The notes under the pieces were generated by a model. That model was not told the DNA's origin and searched no databases. It worked only from the letters and a program-made list of their open reading frames with translations. A stretch of DNA of 34,011 bases from an uncultured bacterium (GTDB lineage Bacteria; Cyanobacteriota; Vampirovibrionia; Gastranaerophilales; Gastranaerophilaceae): the NCBI GenBank assembly GCA_902797575.1, contig CADBTL010000004.1, positions 1 to 34,011 of the forward strand. The letters are read 5' to 3'. A program made the translations under genes and the position numbers. Below, piece after piece: positions 14,895 to 34,011 of the stretch; the first letter of the stretch is position 1; each line of letters starts with the position of its first letter.

Positions 14895-14946
14895 AATTAT
14901 TCGCATATAAAAATCAATATAAAAATAAGTACAAGGAGATATGGTA

Positions 14947-18862: not shown

Positions 18863-20974
18863 TTACACAACTATATAGTTGTATACTTGATTCATAACTT
18901 CTGCAAAATCATTTTGGTTGCCAAAAAACAGGTACATCTCTGCATTATTGTACCCTATCATTTGTAAATCATTAACTTCTATAGGCGGACCTGCAGGAGT
19001 AGTTCTTGCCGGATTTTTAGGATTGGAAATTTGTCCGGTTGCTCTCAAAATCGGAATCATTAAATTATTTTGAAATACTTCATATTGAGTTAAACCTTTT
19101 GTTATGATTCCAATATTATTACCGTCATCATCAATTAATAAACCTCTTTGCATTGGTGCAGTATTATTTTTAACTTCAATACCTTTTTCTTCCGGTAAAT
19201 TTTCTCGTATATTATAATCAGGGTCAAATTCACGTTTTATAAGTAAATTCATATCCTCTGAAAAAACTGTTTTAATCGGGTTATCAAGTTTTGCAGTAAA
19301 ACACAATAAATGATTTTTTCTTGAATTATCCCACTCAAAAAAGAATTTAATAAATCTTGAGTGAGCATTCAATGTTGCATATAGTGTAATAATATCCCAT
19401 GAACTTTCTAATTCAATTTTTAAAATAGCCTGCAAGTTATTGTTTTGGATAATTTTTGTTTTTAATATTTTGAATTCTTTTCCTTTATCTTCTTTTTTCG
19501 GTGCATAGTTATAGCTGTCACCCAAATCAATAAAATCTATAAGGCAGAGTTCAATATTATTTAGTAACATTTTATTGTCTTTTAATTGAAGTTTTATGTA
19601 ATTATTTTGCAAAAGATTTTCATTAATTTCTAAATCAGATTCTCTATAAATTGGCAAAAGGAATTCAGGCTCAGAACTTTCAACGTTTTCGACTCTTGCA
19701 ATATATTTACACATTTCTCTATAGTCTTCCGTAACAGGGATTCTATATGTGTCTGTTAGTAAAAACTTGTCAAATCCGTGTTTAACAAAAACTTCTTCAA
19801 AACCGTTTAATTTTTCAGTTGATTCAAATTCAATTATCCCAGAATAACTTTTACCGGATAAATTTAAAATTCGACTTCCATTAAGATTGTTTTTGAATTT
19901 AATTTCATCAATAATACCATCTGCTATTTGAGCAATTTTATTGTATCTTATATTATTTTCCTGATGTACCTTGTCTGTAGAACATCCGCAAATACTATCA
20001 TGAGCTTGGTTTTGCAATAACATTTTATACGCATATTCGATAACAGTATCATATGAATTATCCTTGTAAAATTTTGCTAACTTTGATACTAAGTCAAGTT
20101 TATAACTGCATTCAATATTCAATCTTTTCAAGTCAAGTCTGGATGAATAACATCCTTGAAGTGTAAAAGTTCTTGAATTATCCCTCAACTCTTCGTTACA
20201 TCTGTATTGTTTGAAATTATCTTCTACTCTTGAAAAATAATCAAAAGGTGAACTTAATGTAATATAATAACTGTCTTTTAATAATTCATTAACAACTTCT
20301 ATTTGCTCGCTAATATCAGGTTCAATTCCCAAATGATCTGCACCAATCGGAAATAAAATATATTTATCATTTTTCCCTTGTTCAGAGATTAAATCAAATT
20401 CTCTTTTAATTAATTGTGCCTTTTCTTCAACAGATACTTTCTGAGAAAATTCATCATGAAAATATCCTCGAACTAAATTTACAGTATCCATTCCGCACCA
20501 CTTAAAATCGCTTGGAATTTCTTTTGAACAGCCACGCCATACAATACATTTATCGATGCCATAATCACGCATAATATCTACAACATTTTGACTATGACCA
20601 AACGTATCAGGTAAATATCCGATAAAATCATTACATCCGTATTTTTGAGCAGTTTTTATTCCTAATTCAAGATTCTTAGAAAAACAAGTTCTATCGGTTA
20701 AAAATTCATCTACCAAACAATAAAACGGACCAATAAAAAGCTTTTTACGCTTAATAAGATTAGAAATTAGTTCCCTGTTTTCCGGTCTCATTTCCAAATA
20801 ATCTTCTAATGCACTTACTTGACCGTCAAAATAAAAAGATGGGATTTTATTTTTGTAAAGCAAATCAAGAATATTATCAAAGACTCGCAATAAGCGTAGT
20901 CTAAAAATCTCAAACTCCCTATACCACTCTCTGTCCCAGTGAGTATGTAAATATGCTATGACATGCTTTTTCAT
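18863..20974 (-). CDS. Glycoside hydrolase family 38 alpha-mannosidase (MngB-like)
   Basis: 703 aa from the ATG at 20974; an ATG 15 nt upstream lies within the putative promoter. GH38 enzymes are zinc-dependent retaining alpha-mannosidases. The zinc-binding HTHWDREW (H12 and D14) opens the protein. The nucleophile Asp is in GYLPDTFGHSQ (D123). QNQAHDSICGCSTD supplies the later His/Asp site. The C-terminal beta-rich mannosidase domains follow. There is no signal peptide, so it is cytoplasmic; HTHWDREW resembles mannosylglycerate hydrolase MngB. TATAAT ends exactly 6 nt before the chosen ATG and no ribosome-binding site is present, which suggests a leaderless mRNA. The 3' end contains a 16-nt perfect palindrome (18867-18882). 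Confidence 0.88.
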   Translation of the reverse strand: MKKHVIAYLHTHWDREWYREFEIFRLRLLRVFDNILDLLYKNKIPSFYFDGQVSALEDYLEMRPENRELISNLIKRKKLFIGPFYCLVDEFLTDRTCFSKNLELGIKTAQKYGCNDFIGYLPDTFGHSQNVVDIMRDYGIDKCIVWRGCSKEIPSDFKWCGMDTVNLVRGYFHDEFSQKVSVEEKAQLIKREFDLISEQGKNDKYILFPIGADHLGIEPDISEQIEVVNELLKDSYYITLSSPFDYFSRVEDNFKQYRCNEELRDNSRTFTLQGCYSSRLDLKRLNIECSYKLDLVSKLAKFYKDNSYDTVIEYAYKMLLQNQAHDSICGCSTDKVHQENNIRYNKIAQIADGIIDEIKFKNNLNGSRILNLSGKSYSGIIEFESTEKLNGFEEVFVKHGFDKFLLTDTYRIPVTEDYREMCKYIARVENVESSEPEFLLPIYRESDLEINENLLQNNYIKLQLKDNKMLLNNIELCLIDFIDLGDSYNYAPKKEDKGKEFKILKTKIIQNNNLQAILKIELESSWDIITLYATLNAHSRFIKFFFEWDNSRKNHLLCFTAKLDNPIKTVFSEDMNLLIKREFDPDYNIRENLPEEKGIEVKNNTAPMQRGLLIDDDGNNIGIITKGLTQYEVFQNNLMIPILRATGQISNPKNPARTTPAGPPIEVNDLQMIGYNNAEMYLFFGNQNDFAEVMNQVYNYIVV

Positions 20975-20980
20975 AAGATT

Positions 20981-20986
20981 ATTATA
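20981..20986 (-). promoter_or_regulatory. -10 box of the mannosidase gene, leaderless type
   Basis: On the minus strand TATAAT (20986-20981) is followed by six nt and the ATG at 20974. No Shine-Dalgarno sequence. Confidence 0.5.
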
Positions 20987-21031
20987 CATCAGAAATTTTA
21001 ATATTATACACAGAAGCTGCAGAATAATTTA

Positions 21032-21060
21032 TTGAATTAGACCTGTTTTTTAGATACAAC
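21032..21060 (+). promoter_or_regulatory. Promoter of the GT9 gene, leaderless type
   Basis: TTGAAT (21032-21037) and TACAAC (21055-21060) are 17 nt apart. The ATG follows only 6 nt after the -10, so transcription should begin at or next to the start codon. Confidence 0.6.
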
Positions 21061-21066
21061 TTTGTT

Positions 21067-22077
21067 ATGAACAAAAATTTAAAAAATATCTTAGTTATAA
21101 ATTTTGGCGGCCTTGGTGACGAAATACTTTTTTTACCTACGATTATTTCACTAAAAAAAGAATTTCCGAAAGCAAAGATTACGCTTGTGTTGGAAAATCG
21201 CAGTAAAGGTATTACGTCATTAACCGATTTAATTAATGAAACAATTACTGTAGATATAAAATCAGGCAATTTTAAGAAGTACACAAATTTACTCTGTTTA
21301 TTAGTAAAAATTTGGGCAAGACATTTTGATATGGTTGTATCTTCAGGTGGAAACAAATTAATATCAATATTCCTATTTTTAACTTTTATAAAAGAAAAAT
21401 GCGGATATAATACAGGTAAGTTAAGTGAATTCCTATTAACAAAAGCTGTTCCGCTCAACAAAAATCAATATGCAGCAAGAATGTATCACGATTTGATAAG
21501 AGAGATAACATCAATAAATACAGAATTGCCGGAAATTAATGTAATAAAAAAGAATGCTGAACCTAATACAGTTCTTATTCATCCCGGTGTTAGCCTAATG
21601 AGTGTACGCAAAGGAATGATTAAAACCATACCTGCTAATATTTGGGCAGAAGTTGTTGATAAATTAGCAGATAGAGGAAAGCGAGTTATTCTTGCAGGCG
21701 GTCCTGATGATAAAGACGTAATAGAATACATTTCTCAAAAAGTTTCTTCCGATAAATATATTAATATGTACGGCAAAACTAAAAACTTAAAGGAACTGGC
21801 GGAACTAATTGCAAAAGCTGAAATATTCCTTTGTTCGGATTCTGCACCTTTACATATTGCAGTTTCTCTGGGGATAAGGACTTTTGCGATTTTCGGTTCA
21901 ACTGACGATAAAAAACTTATACCGCAAAATCAACTTGTTACACCTATCAAATCAAGTGATTGTAATTGCGGAATTCAACCTTGTTTGTGGGAGCATAGAA
22001 GTACAACATGTGAAACTCTGGATTGTTTGAAAATAACTTCAGATGAAATAGTTGAAATAGTTACCAAAAATATTTAA
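21067..22077 (+). CDS. Glycosyltransferase family 9, heptosyltransferase-like
   Basis: 336 aa, two Rossmann domains (GT-B). The N-terminal ILVINFGGLGDEILFLPTI (8-26) is the GT9 acceptor-domain signature. The C-terminal half has VLIHPGVS, RVILAGGPDD and the nucleotide-sugar binding motif LCSDSAPLHIAVSLGIRTFAIFGSTD (about 256-281). Family members (WaaC/WaaF/WaaQ) add heptose from ADP-heptose to the LPS inner core at the cytoplasmic face, which fits the kdsC gene in this window. The donor could differ in this lineage. Divergent from the mannosidase; its stop overlaps the convergent lipoprotein gene by 4 nt. No ribosome-binding site. Confidence 0.88.
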   Translation: MNKNLKNILVINFGGLGDEILFLPTIISLKKEFPKAKITLVLENRSKGITSLTDLINETITVDIKSGNFKKYTNLLCLLVKIWARHFDMVVSSGGNKLISIFLFLTFIKEKCGYNTGKLSEFLLTKAVPLNKNQYAARMYHDLIREITSINTELPEINVIKKNAEPNTVLIHPGVSLMSVRKGMIKTIPANIWAEVVDKLADRGKRVILAGGPDDKDVIEYISQKVSSDKYINMYGKTKNLKELAELIAKAEIFLCSDSAPLHIAVSLGIRTFAIFGSTDDKKLIPQNQLVTPIKSSDCNCGIQPCLWEHRSTTCETLDCLKITSDEIVEIVTKNI

Positions 22078-22673
22078 TCAGCTTGCTGAATATATCTCAA
22101 ATACCCGTATGCATTAAATTTAAGTGAACCAAACATTATTTTTAAATAGTTATCATTATATGGAGTTATTTTGACAAAATCTATGTCTTCAGACTCATAA
22201 TCCTCTTTTGTAGGATATCCCTTTATTTTTCCCATCAAATTATGTGCCTGATACAGAGATAAAACTATTTCATTATTTGAAGCCTTTTCTCCATACACAT
22301 TATAAAAACCTTTTTCCAATATTTTTCCGTCAACAATTACATCAACCGGTATGTTTAGCAGCCTGCCTTCTATATCTCCTTTATCGTTGAGAGATTCTTG
22401 CTTAAGTATTTCACTTGTCGGCTCTAAGCCTTTATGTAAACTTGTTCCCCCTCCGCTGATTTTTTTAATCTTTTTTTTGCGGGCTTTTTCTTCTTTTTTC
22501 TTTTGCTTAGCAGTCAGAGTATCAATAGCTTTTTCGAATTCATCATTTGTAATAGGTTTCTGATTATCCCAAGCATTATCAATACCTGTATAATTATCAA
22601 AAAAATCGTCCGCATAAACATAACATCCGGATAATACAGCCAAAATTATTAAAGATATTGCTAAATGTCTCAT
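22074..22673 (-). CDS. Hypothetical lipoprotein
   Basis: 199 aa. The signal MRHLAISLIILAVLSGC has a perfect lipobox (LSGC, C17). The mature part has a highly basic K/E stretch (about 54-72, AKQKKKEEKARKKKIKK), a glycine hinge and a C-terminal globular region (about 100-199: VDVIVDGKILEKGFYNVYG, IVLSLYQAHNLMGKIKGYP) of unknown fold. It is probably outer-membrane or periplasm anchored. Convergent with the GT9 gene (4-nt overlap of stops). The promoter TTTACA-N16-TATAAA sits 7 nt before the ATG with no ribosome-binding site. Confidence 0.8.
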   Translation of the reverse strand: MRHLAISLIILAVLSGCYVYADDFFDNYTGIDNAWDNQKPITNDEFEKAIDTLTAKQKKKEEKARKKKIKKISGGGTSLHKGLEPTSEILKQESLNDKGDIEGRLLNIPVDVIVDGKILEKGFYNVYGEKASNNEIVLSLYQAHNLMGKIKGYPTKEDYESEDIDFVKITPYNDNYLKIMFGSLKFNAYGYLRYIQQAD

Positions 22674-22680
22674 ATTTATA

Positions 22681-22708
22681 TTTATAACGTATTTTTTCCG
22701 GATGTAAA
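22681..22708 (-). promoter_or_regulatory. Promoter of the lipoprotein gene, leaderless type
   Basis: Minus strand: TTTACA (22708-22703), 16-nt spacer, TATAAA (22686-22681), then 7 nt and ATG at 22673. Confidence 0.6.
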
Positions 22709-22818
22709 CATGTGAATGGTTGATTTTAATTTACCCACTATTTGAACGAATTTATTTTTAAAAATTATGTATATAATGTATAATGAGAAATATTAATACT
22801 AAAAAATGAGAGCTTAAC

Positions 22819-24477
22819 ATGTTAAATTCCAATATTATTCTTATAATTGTTGCTTTTCTGATTGCATCAGGAGCTATATATACTTTATATTCAATTCTTT
22901 TGTTTAAAGGTGTTACAAGCAAAGGTGATGAATTACAACTCTCTACAAAAAATATTTTAGAGCAGGTAGAAGTTCTTTTCAGTAAGCAAGAATATGCATT
23001 AGTAGAGCTTTTAGCAACAAAATATTTAGATAGAGTTCCGGGACATTATGAAGTTAGAAAAATTCTTGCTAAAGCTTATTATGAAGATAAAAAATATAAT
23101 TTAGCGATGAAGCAATGTAACATAGTTTTGCAAAAACACCCGAATGACACTGATACTCACTATGTTTTAGGCAGATGCTACATGAAAAAATATTATTTAA
23201 ATAAAGCAATAAGTGAATTGTATTTTGTTTATGAACGCAATAAAAAAGATAAAGAAATAATAAAAATGCTTGCAGAATTATATACGCAAACAGACCAACT
23301 GCATTTAGCAATAGAAGCATATAAAGAATTAGTTGATTTAACAGAAGATTCTGCTGCTGCCGCAGATATACAATCGATCATTGCAGATTTGAATGAGGAA
23401 GTTAGTGATTATGCAGCTGCATTTGAAGCATATAAATCAAGATTAGCAACTTTCCCTAAGGACATTGACACAAACAGAAAACTTGTAGAATTATATGTAA
23501 AAATAGGCAATTATCCGCATGCAATCGAGACACTTTTATTGATGTTGAGTTTTGTAACAGAACCAAAGATGCTCTTGTGGGTATTTGAGATGTTGGTTGA
23601 TCTATACGAAGCAACAGAAGATTATGAAAAAGCTATTGCTTATTCTGAAAAATTATTGGATGTACAAGGTTCAGATAAGTTCAAAGTTCGTGACAGAATT
23701 GCTAATTTTTATATTAAACTTAATAAATACACTGATGGAATTACAATCTTTGAAGATTTAGCAATGATGTCTCAAAATGGTTTTGACGTTACACTGGAAT
23801 TAGCAAAAGCGTATATAGAAAATGGCGAATTTGAAAAAGCTTTAGATAAATATAAAATATTGTTAGATAAAGGTACCCCGAAAGAGGCAAAAGTAGTAAA
23901 TGGCCTTGTTTCCGAATTATATATTAAATGGTCTGACATTCCGTTAAAAGAAGCAGATTATCCTAAGACAATGGAGTTCTTGGAAAGTGCGCTGCAATAT
24001 AATCCCATTAGCTCGGATGCTTTTTATCATATTGCAAATTGTCATTTTGAGCAAAAAAATTATACTAATACAGTTGAATTTGCAAATAAATCACTTACTT
24101 ATGACAAAGATAATGTAAATCATCCGAAAGCATTACTTTTGTTATCACAAGCACACCATGAACTTGGTAATTTCTTTGAAGAGAAAAAAGCTTTATCAGA
24201 TTTGTTAAATATAGATTCAGAGAATCCTGTAGGATTATATAGATTAGGACTTATGTATGCAGGTCAACGTGATATTAAAAATGCAGAAGAGGCATTTACG
24301 AAAGCAATTAAATATGACCCCGATTTAATTCAAGCAAAATATAATTTAGCACTTTTATATGAAAATAGTAACAAAGATAAGGCTAAGGAACTTTATATGG
24401 AAGTTTTGGAACAAGATCCTACTTTTATTGAAGCGAAAAATGCTTTAACAGATTTATCCTCCTCCGATTCTTTTTAA
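22819..24477 (+). CDS. Membrane-anchored TPR-repeat protein
   Basis: 552 aa. One N-terminal transmembrane helix (about 5-28, IILIIVAFLIASGAIYTLYS) is followed by at least ten tetratricopeptide repeats, e.g. YNLAMKQCNIVLQKHPND, HYVLGRCYMKKYYLNKAI, YEKAIAYSEKLLDVQG, LYRLGLMYAGQRDIKNAEEA and YNLALLYENSNKDKAKEL. The layout recalls LapB/YciM, but the C-terminal rubredoxin-like CxxC motif of LapB is absent. It is likely a scaffold at the inner membrane. Start is supported by a weak gagag 6 nt upstream. Its stop overlaps the convergent 57-aa gene by 4 nt. Confidence 0.88.
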   Translation: MLNSNIILIIVAFLIASGAIYTLYSILLFKGVTSKGDELQLSTKNILEQVEVLFSKQEYALVELLATKYLDRVPGHYEVRKILAKAYYEDKKYNLAMKQCNIVLQKHPNDTDTHYVLGRCYMKKYYLNKAISELYFVYERNKKDKEIIKMLAELYTQTDQLHLAIEAYKELVDLTEDSAAAADIQSIIADLNEEVSDYAAAFEAYKSRLATFPKDIDTNRKLVELYVKIGNYPHAIETLLLMLSFVTEPKMLLWVFEMLVDLYEATEDYEKAIAYSEKLLDVQGSDKFKVRDRIANFYIKLNKYTDGITIFEDLAMMSQNGFDVTLELAKAYIENGEFEKALDKYKILLDKGTPKEAKVVNGLVSELYIKWSDIPLKEADYPKTMEFLESALQYNPISSDAFYHIANCHFEQKNYTNTVEFANKSLTYDKDNVNHPKALLLLSQAHHELGNFFEEKKALSDLLNIDSENPVGLYRLGLMYAGQRDIKNAEEAFTKAIKYDPDLIQAKYNLALLYENSNKDKAKELYMEVLEQDPTFIEAKNALTDLSSSDSF

Positions 24478-24647
24478 ATATCCTCCGGAATATAAATTAC
24501 TGTGTCATCCAGGTAGTTTCTGATAATTTCGTAGTCGCATCCTCTCGGAACAATTCTTTGATATTCTTTTACAATAGAAAGTATATCATTTGTAGTCAAT
24601 TTAATTAATCTTCTGCTATTACTTGTTGATTCCAATATTCTTGCCAT
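24474..24647 (-). CDS. Small conserved-looking protein, 57 aa
   Basis: It starts MARILESTSNSRRLIKLTTN and ends YIPEDI. It has a near-perfect ribosome-binding site (aaaggaggatat directly before the ATG), stronger than most in the window, and codon usage like its neighbours. The sequence suggests a central helix (NDILSIVKEYQRIV) and a terminal strand pair; one Cys at C37. No family recognised. It overlaps the TPR gene stop by 4 nt. Confidence 0.75.
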   Translation of the reverse strand: MARILESTSNSRRLIKLTTNDILSIVKEYQRIVPRGCDYEIIRNYLDDTVIYIPEDI

Positions 24648-24729
24648 ATATCCTCCTTTATAATTAATATTATCGGCAAAAATATAAAAAACTTTTGAAT
24701 AATCAAGTTAATACATTAGAAAAATCTAT

Positions 24730-25236
24730 TCATTGTTGAACAGAAAGTTTAAAACTTTCTTTTTGATTTGAGCTGACGGCAGTAATAATATAATTTCCGT
24801 GCTTGTATTCAAAAACGGATTTTGGAGCTTCATTTAATTTATATTCAGCTTCAAACTTTGTCCATTCTTTATAAAAATCTTCCGGAGTGTCACAATTAAA
24901 TTTCATCCTTTTAGCAATTGCTCTATAATTTCTTTCTTTAATTTTTTCAATGTCAATACCGCAATTATAATCTGATATTGCAATAGCTATATATTCTTTA
25001 CTGTGACTTAGGCTGAAATACTTTTCTTTGCTTACTAGTACTGGTTTTTTATTTATATATTCAATTTTTGTATTTTTTACATTAAACTTTTCTTTTAATA
25101 TTTTATTCAACGAATAATATGCAAAAGTATGCTCAATTTGTTTATTTTTATCGTAAAATGTTTTATGACAAAAGTTTTCTAACTCCATACTCATAATATT
25201 GGTATATAAAGTTTTTGGTATAATAAAAATTTCCAT
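24730..25236 (-). CDS. 4'-phosphopantetheinyl transferase (Sfp-like, short)
   Basis: 168 aa. It transfers phosphopantetheine from CoA to acyl/peptidyl carrier proteins. Family motifs: FSLSHSKEYIAIAI (74-87), the metal-binding GIDIE (D95, E97) and the third ligand plus CoA-binding lysine in WTKFEAEYK (E129, K133). At 168 aa it is shorter than Sfp (about 224) but holds both conserved halves of the pseudo-dimeric fold. It may serve fatty-acid ACP (AcpS role) or a secondary pathway; no PKS/NRPS genes are in the window. An extended -10 lies 6 nt before the ATG and there is no ribosome-binding site, so it is probably leaderless. Confidence 0.85.
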   Translation of the reverse strand: MEIFIIPKTLYTNIMSMELENFCHKTFYDKNKQIEHTFAYYSLNKILKEKFNVKNTKIEYINKKPVLVSKEKYFSLSHSKEYIAIAISDYNCGIDIEKIKERNYRAIAKRMKFNCDTPEDFYKEWTKFEAEYKLNEAPKSVFEYKHGNYIITAVSSNQKESFKLSVQQ

Positions 25237-25242
25237 GAGTCT

Positions 25243-25251
25243 ATTTTAACA
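25243..25251 (-). promoter_or_regulatory. Extended -10 of the phosphopantetheinyl transferase gene
   Basis: Minus strand reads TGT-TAAAAT (25251-25243), then AGACTC, then the ATG at 25236. Confidence 0.6.
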
Positions 25252-25276
25252 AAAAATTCTATTATCATAAATGTTG

Positions 25277-25282
25277 TATAAT
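25277..25282 (+). promoter_or_regulatory. -10 box of the DegT-like gene, leaderless type
   Basis: TATAAT (25277-25282) is followed by 7 nt and the ATG at 25290; no Shine-Dalgarno. It shares a 53-nt divergent intergenic region with the transferase gene. Confidence 0.5.
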
Positions 25283-25289
25283 ATAAAAT

Positions 25290-25976
25290 ATGTATAAAAT
25301 AAAAAAATTTAATCTAGCAAGAAATGCTCTTTACTTTTTTATACAAGAATTCAATATAAAGGAATTATATATTCCTTACTATTTATGTGATGTAGTAAGA
25401 CATACATTATTTAATGCCGGTTGCAATATAAAATTTTATCATATTAATGATAGTTTTTTCCCTGAACGCAAATTTAATAAGAACGATTTTATTCTATACC
25501 CTAATTATTTTGGAGTTTTTAGAGATAATGTTGAAAAATTAGTATCATATTATCCAAATATTATTATTGATAATGCACATGCATATTATGAAAAACCGTT
25601 GGGTTTGGCTTGTTTTAATGCGGGGCACAAATTCGGCCACAAAGATTCAATTTTATGGTATGGGAATTCAGCAGTAACAAACAATTTAAATTACGCAGAA
25701 AATGATAACGCTAAAAAGCTGTATAAGAAATTTGTGGAGCTTCATAAAATATATTCTCCAACAAATCAATTAAATATAAATATTGAAAAGATAACATCTC
25801 CTTTTGTATATCCTTATCTTGCAGAATCAACGCAAATGGCAGACATACTGGTCAATAAACTCACCAAAGAAGGTAAAATAATATACAGATATTGGAATAA
25901 TTTGCCCAAAAGTTTTAATGAATATAAATTTTATTCCAGACTCGTACCCATTCCGCTTATAGAAGCTGTTGACTAA
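25290..25976 (+). CDS. Compact DegT/DnrJ/EryC1-like PLP-enzyme homologue
   Basis: 228 aa. It resembles the DegT aminotransferase family: RNALYFFIQEFNIKELYIPYYLCDVV at the N-terminus (11-36), NDFILYPNYFGV (65-76), the cofactor-binding IIIDNAHAYYEKPLG (D94, H97), and a candidate Schiff-base Lys in NAGHKFGHKD (K114). The C-terminal ESTQMADILVNKL and RYWNNLPKS also look family-like. Normal members have about 350-400 residues, so roughly 100 central residues are missing: either a minimal form or a decayed one. It may act in sugar-nucleotide metabolism for surface glycans, if still active. Its last 20 nt overlap the convergent kinase gene. Confidence 0.6.
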   Translation: MYKIKKFNLARNALYFFIQEFNIKELYIPYYLCDVVRHTLFNAGCNIKFYHINDSFFPERKFNKNDFILYPNYFGVFRDNVEKLVSYYPNIIIDNAHAYYEKPLGLACFNAGHKFGHKDSILWYGNSAVTNNLNYAENDNAKKLYKKFVELHKIYSPTNQLNINIEKITSPFVYPYLAESTQMADILVNKLTKEGKIIYRYWNNLPKSFNEYKFYSRLVPIPLIEAVD

Positions 25977-27642
25977 TCGGCATAATAACTTTTACACAGA
26001 AACCACATTCTTCATTAGAATACAATCTGATTTCACCATGCATTGCTTCTACTAACCCTTTTACAATATACAACCCCAATCCGGTTCCTCGTGTAGTTCT
26101 TGTTGTAGAATCATCCAAACGTGTAAATTTATCAAATAAAGTTTTTAGTTTTTCTCTCGGAATAACATCATATTCATTTTGAACGGATATAGTAATATGG
26201 TTATTATCAATTTCGTAGTTTAGCACAATTCCTGTATCGTCTTTTGCATATTTAATAGCATTTTCAATAAGGTTAACAAAAACTTGTTCAATTCTATCGT
26301 TATCTGCATAAATTTCTGTTTGACAGTTTTGAATATTATTAATTATTTCCTTACCTGAATCGTTTTTGACCAGCAAAAGTGAATTTTCAATAATAGTATT
26401 AATAGGTATACTTATAAAATTAAAATTGAGTTTTGCGCCTTCTATATCAGGTATTACAAGTAAATCCTCAATCATACGTTTCAGTCTTTCTGATTGACGT
26501 TTGATTATTTTTAAAGATTTTTGTTTAGTTTCTTCATCTATTTCAATATCTTGTCTCAATAGTCTAGATGTGTATCCTTGTATGCTTGTAAGCGGAGTTC
26601 TGAATTCATGGCTTACCGTATCTATCATGTTTGATCGAAATTCATCCAGTTGTTTTAGTTCTTTATTTTTTTTCTTGATTTGGATGTATGATTTATGAAT
26701 TTGATTTACCATTCTGTTAAATTCTGTTGCCAAAAATACCAGCTCAAACGGTGTAAATATATTGGTTAATAATCTAATGCGACGTTCATAATTCCCTTTT
26801 GATATTGCTATTATTGCTTTGAAAAGCTGACGGATATTTGTATACAAATATGACGTGTATAAACCTACTACAAAAAATACTGATAATACTGTTACTAAAA
26901 TAGATAAAATAATTTTGTCACGATTGTAGTCAATAGTATCTTTTTTCATGTCTTCTGTAGTATTAACAATTATTACTGCATTTGGCTTAGTCTTTTTCAA
27001 ATAGACAAGAGGTTGATTCTTCACATTTCCATATATTATAGTCTTATCATTTTCTAAGTTTTTAGGCAGTTGTTCAAGACTTTCTTTTAAACCTTCTTCT
27101 GTATAATTGCTTGCCGCAAAAAGCTCTTTTGTTTCACCGTCAAGTATATATATTTCACGTTTATCCTCTGCTATTGTTTTAAACCAGTCTTTCTTTAAAT
27201 CTTCAACATCTAAGATTGCAACTAAGAATCTTCCATCTTCAAGAGGCCGACTTACAACCATATAATTATCACGAATATTGTATGCTTTATATTGCTGCAA
27301 TTTTTCTTTAGAATTCACAATTAATAATTCTTTATAGAAAGGCATTGTTTTTATAACAGAATCTAAGTATGCTTGCTCTTGTGCACTGTCTTTATAAAAA
27401 TTTAGCGTATATATAATTTGATTAAATTGATTATTGATAGACTCTTCAAATACATTAATCTCTTCCGATACAATGTTTGCAATCATTGTAGCTGCAGTTC
27501 TCAAATGCGCTCTATTTGATTGTTGGTTAATATTATTGATAATCAGACCGCTTACAGTCATAGGAATAAGTACCGCAAAAAATATTACGATAATTATTTG
27601 TTCTGCAATTTTTAAACGTCGTTTTGAAAAGAACTGAACCAT
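25957..27642 (-). CDS. Sensor histidine kinase (orphan)
   Basis: 561 aa. TM1 (15-36), an extracytoplasmic sensor domain of Cache type (about 40-240, NYMVVSRPLEDGRFLVAILD, REIYILDGETKELFAAS), TM2 (244-266), HAMP (about 268-315), HisKA with the phospho-acceptor SHEFRTPLTSI (H345), and HATPase_c with NLIENAIKYA (N box), DKFTRLDD (F box) and TRGTGLGLYIVKGL (G box). No response regulator is adjacent, so the partner and signal are unknown. An extended -10 (TGT-TAGAAT) lies 6 nt before the ATG with no ribosome-binding site. It overlaps the convergent DegT-like gene by 20 nt. Confidence 0.93.
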   Translation of the reverse strand: MVQFFSKRRLKIAEQIIIVIFFAVLIPMTVSGLIINNINQQSNRAHLRTAATMIANIVSEEINVFEESINNQFNQIIYTLNFYKDSAQEQAYLDSVIKTMPFYKELLIVNSKEKLQQYKAYNIRDNYMVVSRPLEDGRFLVAILDVEDLKKDWFKTIAEDKREIYILDGETKELFAASNYTEEGLKESLEQLPKNLENDKTIIYGNVKNQPLVYLKKTKPNAVIIVNTTEDMKKDTIDYNRDKIILSILVTVLSVFFVVGLYTSYLYTNIRQLFKAIIAISKGNYERRIRLLTNIFTPFELVFLATEFNRMVNQIHKSYIQIKKKNKELKQLDEFRSNMIDTVSHEFRTPLTSIQGYTSRLLRQDIEIDEETKQKSLKIIKRQSERLKRMIEDLLVIPDIEGAKLNFNFISIPINTIIENSLLLVKNDSGKEIINNIQNCQTEIYADNDRIEQVFVNLIENAIKYAKDDTGIVLNYEIDNNHITISVQNEYDVIPREKLKTLFDKFTRLDDSTTRTTRGTGLGLYIVKGLVEAMHGEIRLYSNEECGFCVKVIMPISQQLL

Positions 27643-27648
27643 TACTCG

Positions 27649-27657
27649 ATTCTAACA
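27649..27657 (-). promoter_or_regulatory. Extended -10 of the histidine kinase gene
   Basis: Minus strand reads TGT-TAGAAT (27657-27649), then CGAGTA, then the ATG at 27642. Confidence 0.55.
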
Positions 27658-27681
27658 TAAAATAATAGATTTTTAGCTATG

Positions 27682-28005
27682 TTATTTAACAAATTTAGCT
27701 GCAACAGACAAGTCTTTTGATATTAAAAATCGCTGTATTAGTCTTTCTTTTGTAATGTTTACTCTATTCTTTGTATATTTGAGAAAATCTTTTGATGTAA
27801 ATGGTAATGCAGCCATGACAGATATAATAACGCCTGTAATATTTTTATTTTTGGCATTAAAATCTTTCTTAGCCAGTTCTACGTCTTCTTGTGTTTCATC
27901 TTTAAATGGATAATATTGCATGGTATTATTATTTGTTTTACTCCATAAACCATTAAACACTTGTTTTTGTGATAGATTTACATCACCGATTTGAACTATT
28001 TTCAT
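27682..28005 (-). CDS. Small hypothetical protein with N-terminal VFNG motif
   Basis: 107 aa from the ATG at 28005; aggag lies 9 nt upstream, whereas an in-frame GTG 6 nt earlier is too close to it. The N-terminus MKIVQIGDVNLSQKQVFNGL carries a short polar segment then a Phe motif, similar in position to PFRA (4162 gene) and NFGI (33102 gene). A hydrophobic patch (NITGVIISVMAALPF, about 55-69) may be a membrane segment; the C-terminus is basic. Function unknown. Confidence 0.7.
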   Translation of the reverse strand: MKIVQIGDVNLSQKQVFNGLWSKTNNNTMQYYPFKDETQEDVELAKKDFNAKNKNITGVIISVMAALPFTSKDFLKYTKNRVNITKERLIQRFLISKDLSVAAKFVK

Positions 28006-28030
28006 ACACACTTTCTCCTACATACAAATC

Positions 28031-28059
28031 ATATTATCACTTTGTTTATATAACTACAA
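28031..28059 (-). promoter_or_regulatory. Promoter of the 107-aa protein gene
   Basis: Minus strand: TTGTAG (28059-28054), 17-nt spacer, TAATAT (28036-28031), with the gene 26 nt downstream. Confidence 0.55.
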
Positions 28060-28064
28060 TATAA

Positions 28065-28093
28065 TTGTTAAGGAATATTACATGCAATAAAAT
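28065..28093 (+). promoter_or_regulatory. Promoter of ilvE
   Basis: TTGTTA (28065-28070) and TAAAAT (28088-28093) are 17 nt apart; the start codon is 43 nt downstream with a gggag site. Confidence 0.6.
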
Positions 28094-28136
28094 AGCGTTT
28101 ATTATATAATTAAAATACCGAAGGGAGAGTGCTGAG

Positions 28137-29153
28137 ATGATGAACATTGACTGGGGAAATTTAGGATTTGGATATATGAAAACAGATTTTCGCTTTGTAT
28201 CCAATTACAAAGACGGAAAATGGGATGATGGCGAATTAATAACAGATGATTCAGTTGTTATTAATGAAAGCGCTTGCGTGCTTCAATACGCCCAAACTTG
28301 TTTTGAGGGTTTAAAGGCATATAGAACAAAAGATAATAAAGTTGTGTGTTTTAGACCTGACCTTAATGCTAAAAGAATGGCAGATTCAGCAGCAAGGCTT
28401 GAAATGCCTGTATTTCCTGAAGGGAAATTTATTGAAGCCGTCAAAAAAGTTGTAAAAGCTAATATAGATTGGGTTCCACCTTTTGGCTCAGGAGCATCTT
28501 TGTATATTCGTCCTTATATGTTCGGAACAAATCCTGTAATGGGCGTAAAACCTGCCATCGAATATCAATTTAGAATATTTGTGTCTCCGGTTGGTCCGTA
28601 TTTTAAAGGTGGCATGAAACCAATCATTTTGCGTGTTCCTGATTTTGACAGAGCTGCTCCGAGGGGAACCGGACATGTAAAAGCTGGATTGAATTATGCA
28701 ATGAGTTTGCATGCTATAATAGAAGCGCATAATCAAGGATATAATGAGAATATTTACCTTGATTCCGCTACAAGAACTAAAGTAGAGGAAACTGGCGGTG
28801 CAAATATTATATTTGTAACAAAAGATAATGAAATAGTAACTCCAAAATCTTCAACGATACTTCCTTCTATAACCCGCCGATCTTTAATGTACGTTGCAGA
28901 AAACATATTAGGACTAAAAGCTGTTGAGAGAGAAATTTATAAAGAAGAATTATCAGATTTTAAAGAATGTGCTTTATGCGGAACAGCAGCGGTACTTTCT
29001 CCTGTCGGAAAAATTGTAGATCATGGTAAAGAATACGCATTCCCTTCAGGAATGGAAAAGTGCGGCGAAATTACACAAAAGCTTTATGATACTTTAACCG
29101 GTATACAAAAAGGTGAAATTGAACCGCCAAAAGGTTGGATTTTTGAAATATAA
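28137..29153 (+). CDS. ilvE: Branched-chain amino-acid aminotransferase
   Basis: 338-aa fold-type IV PLP enzyme interconverting Leu/Ile/Val and their 2-oxoacids. It is of the longer BCAT type (eukaryotic-like and many bacteria). Motifs: YAQTCFEGLKAYR (51-63), IRPYMFGTNP (124-133), the Schiff-base Lys in GTGHVKAGLNYA (K182), and the C-terminal ECALCGTAAVLSPV. The latter includes a CxxC pair (C278, C281) in the position where mammalian mitochondrial BCAT has a redox CxxC switch. The gene is monocistronic, with its own promoter, and convergent with the small activase gene 2 nt away. Confidence 0.95.
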   Translation: MMNIDWGNLGFGYMKTDFRFVSNYKDGKWDDGELITDDSVVINESACVLQYAQTCFEGLKAYRTKDNKVVCFRPDLNAKRMADSAARLEMPVFPEGKFIEAVKKVVKANIDWVPPFGSGASLYIRPYMFGTNPVMGVKPAIEYQFRIFVSPVGPYFKGGMKPIILRVPDFDRAAPRGTGHVKAGLNYAMSLHAIIEAHNQGYNENIYLDSATRTKVEETGGANIIFVTKDNEIVTPKSSTILPSITRRSLMYVAENILGLKAVEREIYKEELSDFKECALCGTAAVLSPVGKIVDHGKEYAFPSGMEKCGEITQKLYDTLTGIQKGEIEPPKGWIFEI

Positions 29154-29155
29154 AA

Positions 29156-29824
29156 TTAAAGAATTAATCCTTCACAAAGAACAAAACGTCCGAGCGGAAT
29201 AACTTCACAATACGTATTTAGGGATTCTACAAAGCATTTGTTTTCACAGAACCCGCCTGACAAATATAATTTAGAAGGTTTATGTGCAAAATTCCAAGCA
29301 TTATAAGCAAGCCCGTGAACGAATTTTGAAATTGCTTCTGCCGGAATACATCCTCCTGAGATAGCATCCATTATTTTTTCCATTCCAAAAATTCCGCATG
29401 TTACCGAGAACTGTTCGCTATTAAATTTTAAATCATCCATATTTACATCATAAAATTTCATAAGCATTTCTACAGTAGCACCAGTAGAGCTTGCACATGA
29501 TGTATTCCAATCCATGTCGTGAAATTTTCCGTTTTTAAAATTAATCCATTTTGCATCTCTACTGCCTAAATCAAGAACTGTAGCGTCAGCATCAATATTC
29601 TTTTTTCTTGCTCCATTAGCCAATGCTATAATTTCATTTTCATCAGCATAAGCCATATGACCACAAGAGCGAGTTGGTGTTATATTCTGCTCTTTAATTA
29701 TTTTTGATGGCAATATATAATAATTTTTCCCCTCAAAATTGTGAAGGCAAAATTTTTCATCAAAAATTTTGTCATTGGCTATAATTTTAGAATAAGTTGT
29801 TCCTGCATCTAAATATATTGACAT
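29156..29824 (-). CDS. Compact 2-hydroxyacyl-CoA dehydratase activase homologue (ASKHA)
   Basis: 222 aa. Phosphate-1 YLDAGTTYSKI (4-14), phosphate-2 LDLGSRDAKW (84-93), adenosine motif LYLSGGFCEN, and the two cluster cysteines C110 (NTSCASSTGA) and C143 (VTCGIFGMEK). So the [4Fe-4S]-bridged ATPase fold is complete but about 40 residues shorter than HgdC (about 260). It is a distinct paralogue of the 334-aa protein at 13808. No dehydratase lies nearby. An extended -10 (TGT-TAGACT) lies 6 nt before the ATG. Confidence 0.75.
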   Translation of the reverse strand: MSIYLDAGTTYSKIIANDKIFDEKFCLHNFEGKNYYILPSKIIKEQNITPTRSCGHMAYADENEIIALANGARKKNIDADATVLDLGSRDAKWINFKNGKFHDMDWNTSCASSTGATVEMLMKFYDVNMDDLKFNSEQFSVTCGIFGMEKIMDAISGGCIPAEAISKFVHGLAYNAWNFAHKPSKLYLSGGFCENKCFVESLNTYCEVIPLGRFVLCEGLIL

Positions 29825-29830
29825 AGCTAT

Positions 29831-29839
29831 AGTCTAACA
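29831..29839 (-). promoter_or_regulatory. Extended -10 of the small activase gene
   Basis: Minus strand reads TGT-TAGACT (29839-29831), then ATAGCT, then the ATG at 29824. TAGACT matches consensus 4/6. Confidence 0.45.
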
Positions 29840-29962
29840 AAAACAAAAATATTAAAAAAGAAGAAAAACGACGTTATTTAAACTTGCAAGATTATAGCTT
29901 TTAAGTTAAACTTTTCTATGTTGGGGAGTTTCATATACAACCAAACATAAAAAGGAGTAAAA

Positions 29963-30091
29963 ATGCACGAATACGTATTCAAAATGAAAAAGGGCGATAT
30001 AGAAATCGAACTTAAGTCTGATGATTTAGAGTTTGTTGAAGAGCAGCTCAATAAATGGAGAGATGAACTGTTGCAAGATAATGCAAGATAG
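29963..30091 (+). CDS. 42-aa protein paralogous to the N-terminal domain of the next gene
   Basis: Starts MHEYVFKMKKGDIEIELKSD and ends DELLQDNAR. It has a strong ribosome-binding site (aaaggag, 6 nt from ATG). It aligns without gaps to residues 1-37 of the next protein: EYVFKMKKGDIEIELKS with TYSFKVTKGKYQLTFST, and FVEEQLNKWRDEL with IIDEFEKWVRKI. The predicted fold is a beta hairpin plus one helix. It lies 9 nt before the 242-aa gene, so the two form an operon and may co-assemble. Function unknown. Confidence 0.75.
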   Translation: MHEYVFKMKKGDIEIELKSDDLEFVEEQLNKWRDELLQDNAR

Positions 30092-30100
30092 GTTTAAACA

Positions 30101-30829
30101 ATGACAACTTATTCATTCAAAGTTACAAAAGGAAAATATCAACTTACTTTCTCTACAACTGATAGAGAAATGATTATTGACGAGTTTGAAAAATGGGTAA
30201 GAAAGATTTCTGAATATGTTCAAAAAAATAAAGGGCAAGATGCCGTTAAACAAGTAAATTCACAAATTAATGCAGAGAAAGAACTTACTCAAAAAAGAAT
30301 AGAAGAACAATTAAAAAATCTTCCAAAGCCAAGTACGCCCAAAGAAGAAAAAATCGTTGATAAGAATGAAAATCTCGATGTATTTTACTCTCCGGTTTCT
30401 AAGAATGATGATTCATCAAAACCTTCAATTGAAACAGAAAATCTGAATGTTCAAGGAGTTTTTGACAGTATTCTTGACCGTTCAATGCATGCTCCGCAAA
30501 CTGAATTATCTTTTAAACCGAATCCATCAATTAAAAAAGACAATGCTTTTTTGAATTTTATAAGCGGACGTAAAATTGAAAGAAAAATAGATTACTTGTT
30601 AATGACAGCATATTATTTTACTCAATATGAACAAAAACCGAGGTTTACTCTTAAACAATTGAATGCAAAATTAATGCAAAATATTGCTATAATACTTGAC
30701 CACAGTGTAATTCAAGAAGCAATAAACAGAGATTATATTGAATGTTTACCGGATTTAACCGGTGTTGTAGGTGCGTCTGAATATAGATTGACTGCGTATG
30801 GCGAAAAAACACTTTTAGAAGAAGGGTAA
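30101..30829 (+). CDS. Hypothetical protein: small N-terminal domain plus winged-helix-like C-terminus
   Basis: 242 aa. Residues 1-40 form the domain shared with the 42-aa upstream protein. A long polar linker follows (about 45-145). The C-terminal 90 residues (ERKIDYLLMTAYYFTQYEQ, RFTLKQLNAKLMQ, HSVIQEAINRDYIECLPDL, YRLTAYGEKTLLE) have the helix-turn-helix-and-wing pattern of winged-helix domains. It could be a DNA-binding or protein-docking regulator. The ribosome-binding site is weak, suggesting coupling to the upstream gene. Its stop is 1 nt from that of the convergent fusion gene. Confidence 0.75.
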   Translation: MTTYSFKVTKGKYQLTFSTTDREMIIDEFEKWVRKISEYVQKNKGQDAVKQVNSQINAEKELTQKRIEEQLKNLPKPSTPKEEKIVDKNENLDVFYSPVSKNDDSSKPSIETENLNVQGVFDSILDRSMHAPQTELSFKPNPSIKKDNAFLNFISGRKIERKIDYLLMTAYYFTQYEQKPRFTLKQLNAKLMQNIAIILDHSVIQEAINRDYIECLPDLTGVVGASEYRLTAYGEKTLLEEG

Positions 30830-30830
30830 G

Positions 30831-32900
30831 TTAGCTATTTTTATTTGAGCCAAATACCAAATTTTTGAAATTATCCAAAAACTCTTTTCTGTATAAAAAT
30901 CCGAGATGCGCGCCACAATTAATACAAATTAATTTAGTTTCGCTGATTTCTTTAAGTCGTTTTATTTGTTCCGGATTAATAAAATAATCATCAATGCTTT
31001 CGTATATTCTATAATTTTTATTTTCAGATAAAAAATCCGATAGAGCAAATAAGGATGTTTGAGTTGTATCATCATTATCAATGGATAGACCTAAATATTT
31101 TTCGGCATAATCTTGATAACTCATATTGTTTATCATTTTGTAAATATCATTCTTTTTATCATTTAGTGGATTTTCAATAGTATAAATTATATCCGACAAT
31201 TTTTGACGCAAAACAAACGTTGTAATTAATTTACCTTCTTCCTCAGTAAAAGGAAGCTTTTCAAGTTTAAAGTTTTTTTCATCTTTCAAATCATATAATT
31301 GTAAGATTTTAGCCGCCGTAAGAGCTGTTTTATCCTTGACCTCAGGTGAATTTTTATCAAATTCATCTCCGTTTTTATCAAGCTGCTTTAATGCATACTT
31401 TAGTTCTATAGGAGGTGATATTGCTACGTATTTATCTATATTTAGTAAATTATTTTTCGTTTCACTATCAGCAACAAAAAGTGTCGCAATGCCTCCGAAA
31501 GAAGTACCTATTACTATTTTTTCTCTTGGCTTGTAGTCATATTTTTCTTCCAAATTTTTTAAAATAGCCGATGTAACCTTTTTAATATATTCGCAATCTG
31601 TATATGGGATTCCAGGCGCAAATCCTTCCGGCATGCTTTTAATAAATTCCCAGTGAAAATGACTTCCCTGCATTACTACTGAATATCCTGCATCGTAAAA
31701 CATTTTTGCAAAAACAATAGAGTGGTGATTTCCTGCGCCTTCACCGATGGAGGGGTAAAAAATCATCAATGGTGAATTTTTATCTTTTTGTAATAAATAT
31801 TTAAATTGATAAGGTGCTCTACCTTCTGTTATAGATACTGAGCCGGTTTTAATTCTTTTTGTGAAACTTCTGTTCCATACTGAAAGTTCATTCCACATAG
31901 ATTTATTGATAGTTTTGTCATCAAAAAAAGCTGTTTTCATGGAATCAATGACTGGTGTTTGCTTATTATATCCATCTAGTATTATGTCCGGTTTTATCGC
32001 ATCAGCTAGCGGTAGCAATGAATCATTGTCGTTTTTAAGGCCTGAAGCGTTCGATTGTTCCCCAAATTCTGATATGAGTTCCTCAGCAAGCTCAGGATGC
32101 CCTTCTTCGACAAGTTGTTTTTCTTCAATTAAAAGTTCTTGACGATCGTAATTAGAGTTTTTGATGTAATTTTCTATACCAAAGAGTTTTTTATGAATAT
32201 CATACGGATCAGCATAAGTAGTTTCAATCATATGAGCAAGCGGTTGCATGTAAGACGTTCTGTTTAACATAAGTCCAAATTTAATGATAGAAGTTATTGG
32301 TGACGCAAGATATACAGACGGGTCTAAAGCTGCTTCCAAAGCTCTTCCGCATAGAGAGCGTGGTGTGCAAGAATGCAAACACGGCATAACAAAATACGAA
32401 CCCGAATTCATTTTGCACTTGCAAAGAGCTTGCTCCATATTTTCGTTTGTAGGTTTTACTTTAAATATTTTATCAGCAGGATCGAATAAACCTCCAAGCC
32501 CAATTGTTGAATTTGTTAAAAACCTTAGGGTTTCTTTTTTTATGCCTTCACCATCTTTTTGTAGAATACAACTTGCAAGTCTTTTAGGATATTCAATGTT
32601 ATTATAGGCGTCACGAATTCTGTCGATTCCGAATTTAGGCATAATTGAAGACCAGAGAATGTGAGCAGGTTTTGCGATATACTTGTTAAGCTTCATGTTC
32701 AAACTAAACATTTTGCGATTGAATTTTTCGTGCTTATCTTCTCCAACATACATTTTTGCATAATCCGGATATCTTGAGGATTGTGTTGTTTCAGCAGCCT
32801 GAATATTATTAGGTAAAGATTCTGTTTCCGCTGCATAATTTAATACTGGATTAAAAATAAAATATGCTAAGAGTAAAAATGATAATAATTTCTTCTTCAA
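30831..32900 (-). CDS. MlaA/VacJ domain fused to an alpha/beta hydrolase
   Basis: 689 aa from a TTG start at 32900, chosen because AAGGAG lies 9 nt upstream and a signal peptide (MKKKLLSFLLLAYFIFNP, ending near YAA) follows at once; an upstream ATG at 32960 has no site. Residues about 50-240 are MlaA-like: KFNRKMFSLNMKLNKYIAKP, RFLTNSTIGLGGLFDPA, GSYFVMPCLHSCTPRSLCGR. MlaA removes misplaced phospholipids from the outer membrane. Residues about 355-670 form an alpha/beta hydrolase with nucleophile elbow IGTSFGGIA (S467) and a likely catalytic His in GAHLGFL (H665). There is no lipobox Cys, unlike classical MlaA. The MlaA part is unusually Cys-rich. Probable periplasmic/outer-membrane lipid enzyme. 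Confidence 0.85.
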   Translation of the reverse strand: MKKKLLSFLLLAYFIFNPVLNYAAETESLPNNIQAAETTQSSRYPDYAKMYVGEDKHEKFNRKMFSLNMKLNKYIAKPAHILWSSIMPKFGIDRIRDAYNNIEYPKRLASCILQKDGEGIKKETLRFLTNSTIGLGGLFDPADKIFKVKPTNENMEQALCKCKMNSGSYFVMPCLHSCTPRSLCGRALEAALDPSVYLASPITSIIKFGLMLNRTSYMQPLAHMIETTYADPYDIHKKLFGIENYIKNSNYDRQELLIEEKQLVEEGHPELAEELISEFGEQSNASGLKNDNDSLLPLADAIKPDIILDGYNKQTPVIDSMKTAFFDDKTINKSMWNELSVWNRSFTKRIKTGSVSITEGRAPYQFKYLLQKDKNSPLMIFYPSIGEGAGNHHSIVFAKMFYDAGYSVVMQGSHFHWEFIKSMPEGFAPGIPYTDCEYIKKVTSAILKNLEEKYDYKPREKIVIGTSFGGIATLFVADSETKNNLLNIDKYVAISPPIELKYALKQLDKNGDEFDKNSPEVKDKTALTAAKILQLYDLKDEKNFKLEKLPFTEEEGKLITTFVLRQKLSDIIYTIENPLNDKKNDIYKMINNMSYQDYAEKYLGLSIDNDDTTQTSLFALSDFLSENKNYRIYESIDDYFINPEQIKRLKEISETKLICINCGAHLGFLYRKEFLDNFKNLVFGSNKNS

Positions 32901-33101
32901 ATTTGTAGTCTCCTTATAATTAAAATTTAAAAAAATCGAATAAAAATGTTTATTATACAAACGGTTAATAAAGTTGGTTATAATTGAGATTCTGTTAAAA
33001 AAGTCAATTAGATATAAATCTGCTTAAATTTTATAAAGGATTAAGGTAGCAAATTATTTTTTTATAAGTTTTAGTTAATATAGCAATAGAAAGGACAAGA
33101 A

Positions 33102-33437
33102 ATGAATATATCCGTAATCTCTAGTAGCTCAAATCCTAATTTTGGTATTACAAGCAAAGTAAGAATACCAATGAAAGATGGCACTACAACTCTTTTAAAT
33201 GTAACAGGCGAAGTAAATAAGAATGGAACAGTAAAAATTACCAAAATTTTTGGTGATATTATGAGCAAAGGTAAGTCTATTGGGAAAACAAAGAAATATG
33301 CAAATAAGAAAGGTTTTGATACTCAAAGATTTGCGGTAATATCTGAAGAACTTGGCAAAGATGCAAAAGCGCCTGATACAGTAATGGATAAACTTTTCGA
33401 TGCTATAAAGAAACCAAACATTGATTGCAACGCATAA
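33102..33437 (+). CDS. Small hypothetical protein with N-terminal NFGI motif
   Basis: 111 aa. It opens MNISVISSSSNPNFGITSKV: a short Ser/Asn-rich segment, then NPNFGI (11-16). The rest is basic and polar with a beta-rich first half (KVRIPMKDGTTTLLNVTGEV, GTVKITKIFG) and a helical second half (FDTQRFAVISEELGKD, VMDKLFDAIKK). Ribosome-binding site aaagga is 6 nt from the ATG. No family recognised; the motif links it to the proteins at 4162 and 27682. Confidence 0.75.
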   Translation: MNISVISSSSNPNFGITSKVRIPMKDGTTTLLNVTGEVNKNGTVKITKIFGDIMSKGKSIGKTKKYANKKGFDTQRFAVISEELGKDAKAPDTVMDKLFDAIKKPNIDCNA

Positions 33438-33441
33438 AATG

Positions 33442-33450
33442 TGGTATAAT
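33442..33450 (+). promoter_or_regulatory. Extended -10 of a small downstream gene
   Basis: TGG-TATAAT (33442-33450), then AAGCCT, then ATG at 33457, matching the 6-nt spacing of other leaderless starts in the window. It begins 4 nt after the preceding stop. Confidence 0.55.
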
Positions 33451-33456
33451 AAGCCT

Positions 33457-33660
33457 ATGCTTAAATACATATATATAACAATATTTGTACGAAAAGCAAA
33501 ATGCAAAATTTGTAGCAAAACAGCTGATGTATTTTTAAAATACAATAGACAAAGCGGTACACTAAATCTTGCTATATTCAAAAAATGTTTTGATAAATTA
33601 AGAACGGGTTTTGCAAGGGTGATATTCAAAAACTCTCCCCAAAAGGACTTATCACAATAG
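33457..33660 (+). CDS. Possible small basic protein with CxxC, leaderless
   Basis: 67 aa, starting MLKYIYITIFVRKAKCKICS and ending PQKDLSQ. It has a CxxC (C16, C19), a third Cys, and is strongly basic. No ribosome-binding site, but a consensus extended -10 lies exactly 6 nt upstream. The opposite strand is also open (33195-33629), so coding is uncertain; the promoter placement is the main support. No family recognised. Confidence 0.4.
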   Translation: MLKYIYITIFVRKAKCKICSKTADVFLKYNRQSGTLNLAIFKKCFDKLRTGFARVIFKNSPQKDLSQ

Positions 33661-33791: not shown

Positions 33792-33936
33792 AATCTGGGT
33801 GCGTGGCACTCTGCCGAGAGAAAAGTTGACTAAATGTCAAGTTTTATAGAGAGGTGCGGTAGCGCGAATGCGAGAGCATTCATGCGGTACCAACTGCCAC
33901 AAACCGTTTGAAAATTAAATAATCTGGGTGCGTGGC
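33792..33936 (+). repeat. 16-nt direct repeat shared with the tRNA-Lys 5' end
   Basis: AATCTGGGTGCGTGGC occurs at 33792-33807 and again at 33921-33936, where its last 11 nt are the tRNA acceptor 5' strand and beginning of the D-arm. The copies are 129 nt apart (start to start) and enclose the cloverleaf-forming segment. Confidence 0.8.
33803..33900 (+). ncRNA. Candidate four-way-junction (cloverleaf-like) RNA
   Basis: A closing stem GTGGCA (33803-33808)/TGCCAC (33895-33900) surrounds three hairpins: CTCT-GCCG-AGAG (33809-33820); TTGAC (33826-33830)/GTCAA (33836-33840) with a 5-nt loop; and a long arm GGTGC (33853-33857)/GTACC (33887-33891), CGC/GCG, and GAATGC-GAGA-GCATTC (33866-33881) capped by a GNRA tetraloop. 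There is no T-loop consensus, so it is not a normal tRNA. It could be a regulatory or processing element co-transcribed with tRNA-Lys, or a tRNA-derived relic. No known family recognised. Confidence 0.5.
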
Positions 33937-33998
33937 GCAGTTGGTAGCGCAGTTGACTCTTAATCAATTGGTCGTGGGTTCGAGTCCCACCACACCCA
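33926..33998 (+). tRNA. tRNA-Lys (anticodon CTT)
   Basis: 73 nt. Acceptor GGGTGCG/CACACCC with one C-A mismatch (position 6:67), D-arm GCGC-AGTTGGTA-GCGC, anticodon arm GTTGA-CTCTTAA-TCAAT with anticodon CTT, T-arm GTGGG-TTCGAGT-CCCAC, discriminator A. CCA is not encoded. The anticodon arm and variable loop match E. coli tRNA-Lys almost exactly. Confidence 0.95.
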
Positions 33999-34011
33999 AA
34001 TTTAAATATAA

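Follow-up and report, generated by a model that had tools for sequence, protein, structure and literature searches.

Predicted leaderless genes, mostly with extended -10 promoters, beside Shine-Dalgarno initiation in a Gastranaerophilales genome

From the arrangement of promoters and start codons, we consider it very probable that about 8% of the genes in a genome of the order Candidatus Gastranaerophilales are expressed from leaderless mRNAs, mostly transcribed from extended -10 promoters, beside genes that start at Shine-Dalgarno (SD) sites. Starting a protein in this leaderless manner is known, although less common. Gastranaerophilales form part of the Cyanobacteriota/Melainabacteria group, and the histidine kinase encoded in the window (the whole stretch of 34,011 nucleotides that was analysed) has relatives at 79-85% identity in a Candidatus Gastranaerophilales rumen MAG and in RUG-series MAGs. 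The genome comprises 1.83 Mb in 166 contigs (32% GC in the part examined); contig C4 is the window. Genome-wide counts cover 813 kb of the 1.83 Mb (44%) and 645 genes, delimited with a home-made gene caller that takes the 5'-most ATG as the start. Below, the source genome (G000, family f1) is compared with a congener (G005), a genome of family f6 (G015) and one of family f7 (G016).

Eight candidate starts in the window

A sequence-only reading of the window had proposed eight leaderless genes, each without an SD site and with a -10-like hexamer ending 6-7 nt before ATG. On checking the sequence, all eight boxes are present at these starts with the spacers proposed (6 nt in six cases, 7 nt in two), no SD motif precedes any of the eight, four carry the extended TGn, and a -35 element was found where it had been placed for the glycosyltransferase family 9 gene (Table 1). 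A weight matrix was trained on the rest of the source genome and the congener, the window being left out, and it ranks five of the starts (20974, 25236, 27642, 29824 and 33457) within the top 0.1-0.2% of all ATGs.

Table 1. Candidate leaderless starts in the window, with their promoter elements and weight-matrix results
Start (ATG)	Gene	Range	Strand	Promoter elements	Matrix score (rank among ATGs)
20974	GH38-like alpha-mannosidase	20972..20986	-	-10 TATAAT (20981-20986), 6-nt spacer, without TGn	10.7 (top 0.14%)
21067	Glycosyltransferase family 9	21032..21069	+	-35 TTGAAT (21032-21037), 17 nt from -10 TACAAC (21055-21060), 6-nt spacer	2.9 (top 0.8%)
22673	199-aa protein	22671..22686	-	TATAAA (22681-22686), 7-nt spacer, TTTACA at about -35; sequence only	no score at 6 nt; -5.3 with one extra base
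25236	168-aa protein	25234..25251	-	extended -10 TGTTAAAAT, 6-nt spacer	9.1 (top 0.2%)
25290	228-aa protein	25277..25292	+	-10 TATAAT (25277-25282), 7-nt spacer	nothing at 6 nt; 3.9 only with 7-nt spacer
27642	Sensor histidine kinase	27640..27657	-	extended -10 TGTTAGAAT, 6-nt spacer	
29824	BadF/BcrA-type ATPase	29822..29839	-	extended -10 TGTTAGACT, 6-nt spacer	
33457	67-aa ORF	33442..33459	+	extended -10 TGGTATAAT, 6-nt spacer	12.8

The products at 20974 and 21067 match the Pfam families GH38 and Glyco_transf_9, respectively; ORF 18863-20989 has an earlier in-frame ATG at 20989, which makes ATG 20974 the second. The 21067 ortholog in the congener (L156) retains the whole arrangement as TTGAAC-N17-TAAAAC-N6-ATG. 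The 199-aa protein belongs to no Pfam family, and the 168-aa protein (24730-25236, minus strand), without a Pfam match at E 1e-4, looks by eye like an Sfp-type phosphopantetheinyl transferase (GIDIEKI, KEWTKFEA). As no homologue of the 67-aa ORF turned up in 18 relatives, including ten congeners, the ORF is possibly not a gene, and the promoter at 33457 may serve something else. Taken site by site, four of the starts are strong and one is well conserved, the two with 7-nt spacers are plausible, and 33457 is doubtful as a gene.

Apart from these starts, the pyruvate formate-lyase of the window appears to be encoded by two genes on the plus strand: a 698-aa body that lacks the glycyl-radical segment (14941-17037), and an ORF of 139 aa, apart from it and preceded by an SD site of its own, that carries RVSGYAV (17082-17501). 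The radical-domain ORF has a match in 10 of 10 congeners, and in the five congeners read out the body has a stop of its own within the same stretch; a literature search on a split enzyme gave nothing clearly on the subject. At the other end of the window, the 5' end of a tRNA-Lys gene (33925-33999) bears a 16-mer, AATCTGGGTGCGTGGC, present at 33922-33937 and again at 33792-33807, about 130 bp before the tRNA-Lys copy and there followed by non-tRNA sequence; the upstream copy may derive from a decayed tRNA gene or be left over from an insertion.

Promoter position and gene context across the genome

The sequence-only reading had named beforehand a genome-wide peak of TANNNT at -12 as its check, and the peak is there and sharp: 60 of the 645 genes carry the motif at this position, against a mean of 19.1 at neighbouring positions (Poisson p 6e-14), and TGnTANNNT begins at -15 in 35, over a background of 2.5 (p 9e-28). 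Among 563 congener genes, 58 and 28 have the two motifs at these positions (p 5e-16 and 7e-22); the peak is weaker in the f6 genome (17 and 9 of 294) and absent from the f7 genome, similar in GC to the source at 36% (5 and 1 of 294). When the motif is counted without gene calling, the 6-nt spacing is prominent for ATG only, with no 6-nt peak at GTG, TTG or CTG, and the excess is confined to ATGs that open long ORFs (43, vs 1-27 at other spacers), those opening short ORFs having no excess at 6 nt. The proposal of eight leaderless genes is partly borne out: the boxes are real and the genome-wide peak exceeds chance, but 33457 carries the doubt noted above, 20974 is not the first ATG of its ORF, and the 7-nt (-13) class forms no separate peak in the source genome and shows at most a slight excess in the congener.

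SD and leaderless-type starts are almost mutually exclusive, as 58 of the 60 starts with TANNNT at -12 lack an SD site and two have one. The two initiation modes seen in the window, where most other genes do have SD sites as had been stated, coexist across the genome, SD sites at about 56% of starts and leaderless-type signals at about 7-8% (51 of 645 genes, 8%, score when first and early later ATGs are counted).

Aligning starts chosen only for TANNNT at -12 and the lack of an SD site brings out further columns that had not been selected: T at -15 (77%), G at -14 (63%), A at -9 (81%) and -8 (79%), and T at -1 (81%). The pair T-1/A+1 fits transcription initiation on the A of ATG. TTG at -35 distance occurs in 11 of 48 starts without TGn vs 3 of 63 with it, a trade that would be expected of real sigma-70-type promoters; the glycosyltransferase gene at 21067, with a -35 and no TGn, exemplifies the second kind. 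A-richness after the start codon is not specific to leaderless-type starts, being the same in SD genes.

Gene context, for which leaderless-type starts were those with a matrix score of at least 6, separates the two modes further. Such starts are found at 10.8% of divergently oriented genes, at 19.2% of genes lying 26-60 nt behind a co-directional gene and at 1.0% of those at most 25 nt behind one, i.e., they are about tenfold rarer inside operons; SD use follows the opposite trend, rising from 51.7% to 68.1% toward the closest spacing. The set is wide and mostly housekeeping. It includes DNA repair and replication (mutS, ruvB, the DNA polymerase III delta subunit, O6-methylguanine-DNA methyltransferase), tRNA and rRNA modification, isoprenoid, folate and riboflavin synthesis, and outer-membrane efflux (two proteins), and among its members are ispG, an ispE-like kinase, comEC, rsgA, mnmE, rsmH, folP, ribE and a MiaB-type radical-SAM enzyme. 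The theme that had been proposed, regulators and surface-glycan genes, did not hold beyond the window, by informal comparison.

Conservation and lineage distribution

Among start-aligned reciprocal best hits at >=50% identity between source genome and congener, 20 genes have a leaderless-type start in the source genome, and 16 of these have one in the congener as well, vs only 2 of the 114 other genes (odds ratio 224, p 3e-15). In all 16 conserved pairs the alignment begins at residue 1, and identity reaches 88-100% at columns -15, -14, -12, -11, -9 to -7 and -1, against about 35% in the flanks. Where four starts score only in the source genome, the congener has a 7-nt version in two and an SD site in one; both starts that score only in the congener have an SD site in the source genome. 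Source genome and f6 genome, both with the -12 peak, share none of their leaderless starts among 109 reciprocal best hits (small numbers), which suggests either fast turnover or separate gains.

Individual genes extend the comparison. The histidine kinase at 27642 keeps TGnTANAAT-N6-ATG in four orthologs (L061, L063, L064 and L106), and two others (L062 and L065) have purine-rich SD-type sites and different upstream sequence instead, GGGGAGG before a TTG and GAAGAAGGATAAGAGG before ATG; to judge from these sites, the gene is a natural case of a start that would have changed mode. For the BadF-type ATPase at 29824, three orthologs (L068, L069 and L070) have TGnTANNNT-N6-ATG and two (L074 and L075) a plain TANNNT-N6-ATG. 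Sought across the family, a DNA pattern at the start of the histidine-kinase gene proved too specific to be informative, and ribE (riboflavin synthase) served instead, its start being recognised in DNA by MFTGIIE/MFTGIVE and its counts per family tallied by hand. TANNNT stands exactly at -12 in 79 of 89 scorable genomes of family f1 and in both genomes of f7, which are of one genus; the eight genomes from families f2, f4 and f6 all lack it there. Across 66 distinct upstream 12-mers, position -1 is T in 98%, and -5, -3 and -2 vary freely. The orthologs of ribE, the histidine kinase and the ATPase are conserved in protein from the first residues.

A scan for TGNTATAATN6ATG, expressed per Mb and set against a composition-matched control, gave 13.5 vs 0.8 in family f1 (about 17x), 2.7-5.5 vs 0-0.8 in families f3, f5 and f6 (about 7x), 2.8 vs 1.0 in f7 and 0.5-0.9 vs 0.7-1.2 in f2 and f4, i.e., the layout is strong in one Gastranaerophilales family and partial in some. 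One other sampled family of the class stands at 1.1 vs 1.1, and 63 genomes of other Cyanobacteriota at 0.47 vs 0.33 (about 1.4x). The simplest reading of these counts alone, with losses possible in some families, would be a gain inside the order. We lean towards the view that leaderless initiation was not retained from an ancestor but gained late, within a single non-photosynthetic order of the Cyanobacteriota. Oxygenic relatives and the other sampled family of the class stand close to background; in the family with the strong signal, single genes such as ribE would have stayed leaderless across 15 genera, and others would flip between leaderless and SD starts with operon position.

Proposed initiation mode and known systems

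The promoter-start architecture, its statistics, its conservation and its lineage distribution are what we observe, and the mode of expression that we infer from them is as follows. A housekeeping-sigma promoter, usually an extended -10 (TGnTAnAAT) and otherwise one with a -35, would be placed with 6 and sometimes 7 nt between -10 and ATG, such that transcription would start on the A of ATG and yield an mRNA without a 5' UTR, the exact 5' end being the predicted one. The 5'-terminal AUG would then be translated by the SD-independent leaderless (70S-type) route that this architecture implies. About 8% of genes, those proximal to promoters, would use this mode, and the rest, above all operon-internal genes, SD sites or leaders of another kind; with a change of place in the operon, a gene could switch from one mode to the other.

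Chance is the rival that a 32% GC genome invites, since TANNNT is common in such DNA (a background of about 19 per position in 645 genes): the boxes would be look-alikes of TATAAT in AT-rich upstream sequence, and the real promoters would lie farther upstream and give ordinary leaders. For individual sites, 22673 for instance, it may well be correct. As a general account it is already disfavoured by the two peaks (p 6e-14 and 9e-28) and their absence from the f7 genome at 36% GC, by a composition-matched control 17 times rarer in family f1 and by promoter columns conserved in ribE and in the pairs with the congener, and we regard it as the least probable of the alternatives, with hardly any chance of being right.

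A promoter at the ATG could also be real while the true start codon lies downstream with its own SD site, the leaderless ATG being merely the first transcribed triplet; initiation at A is generally favoured and our start calls are the 5'-most ATGs, yet alignment from residue 1 in 16 of 16 conserved pairs, conservation of the ribE, histidine kinase and ATPase proteins from their first residues and a 6-nt excess only at ATGs opening long ORFs make this very unlikely. Just as improbable, in our judgement, are short leaders of 1-5 nt with SD-independent or S1-assisted translation, i.e., mRNAs not strictly leaderless. TSS choice in bacteria does shift by 1-2 nt, and the 7-nt spacer class includes two ortholog pairs with a 6-to-7-nt change, but the peak at a single position, T-1/A+1 and the exclusivity for ATG fit initiation on A; by sequence, a leader of 1-3 nt and none look the same and cannot be separated.

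Strictly leaderless mRNAs, our preferred reading, would place a two-mode start system, SD and leaderless, in an abundant, poorly studied, animal-gut lineage. As its oxygenic relatives are nearly without the leaderless mode, its gain should be traceable gene by gene between families, which bears on the published view of bacterial leaderless genes as ancestral remnants. For Gastranaerophilales genomes from metagenomes, a leaderless model is advisable in predicting start codons and 5' UTRs. Among the papers searched, none treats leaderless genes in Melainabacteria, Gastranaerophilales or Vampirovibrio, and no RNA 5' ends or proteomics of these uncultured genomes turned up in the sources covered; since the mechanism itself is published, it is the lineage and its steep boundary that appear undescribed.

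The closest known counterparts are TA-led genes, defined by TANNNT near -12, which in Lactococcus carry a strong TG extension as well (Zheng et al. 2011, PMC3160421). The starts described here show the features of that class (the -12 peak, no SD, promoter-proximal genes and AUG preference), and the likeness extends to the TG extension in low-GC genomes and to SD genes alongside; the difference is that Gastranaerophilales apparently lie outside its genomes. That survey counts 207 genomes with leaderless genes, from many phyla, among the 953 bacterial ones examined, Cyanobacteria not being among the groups it gives, says that many cyanobacterial genomes use neither SD nor leaderless mode, and proposes the ancestral-remnant view (PMC3160421). 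According to GeneMarkS-2 predictions, 21.6% of bacterial species use leaderless transcription (Lomsadze 2018, cited in PMC9581028), and these resemble the source genome in mixing leaderless and SD starts within one genome; they differ in that Cyanobacteria are instead the example of a weak signal of unknown kind (PMC9581028). Synechococcus elongatus UTEX 2973, of the same broader phylum, has 19 gene TSSs considered leaderless (PMC6091082), few compared with the approximately 8% of genes predicted from sequence in the source genome.
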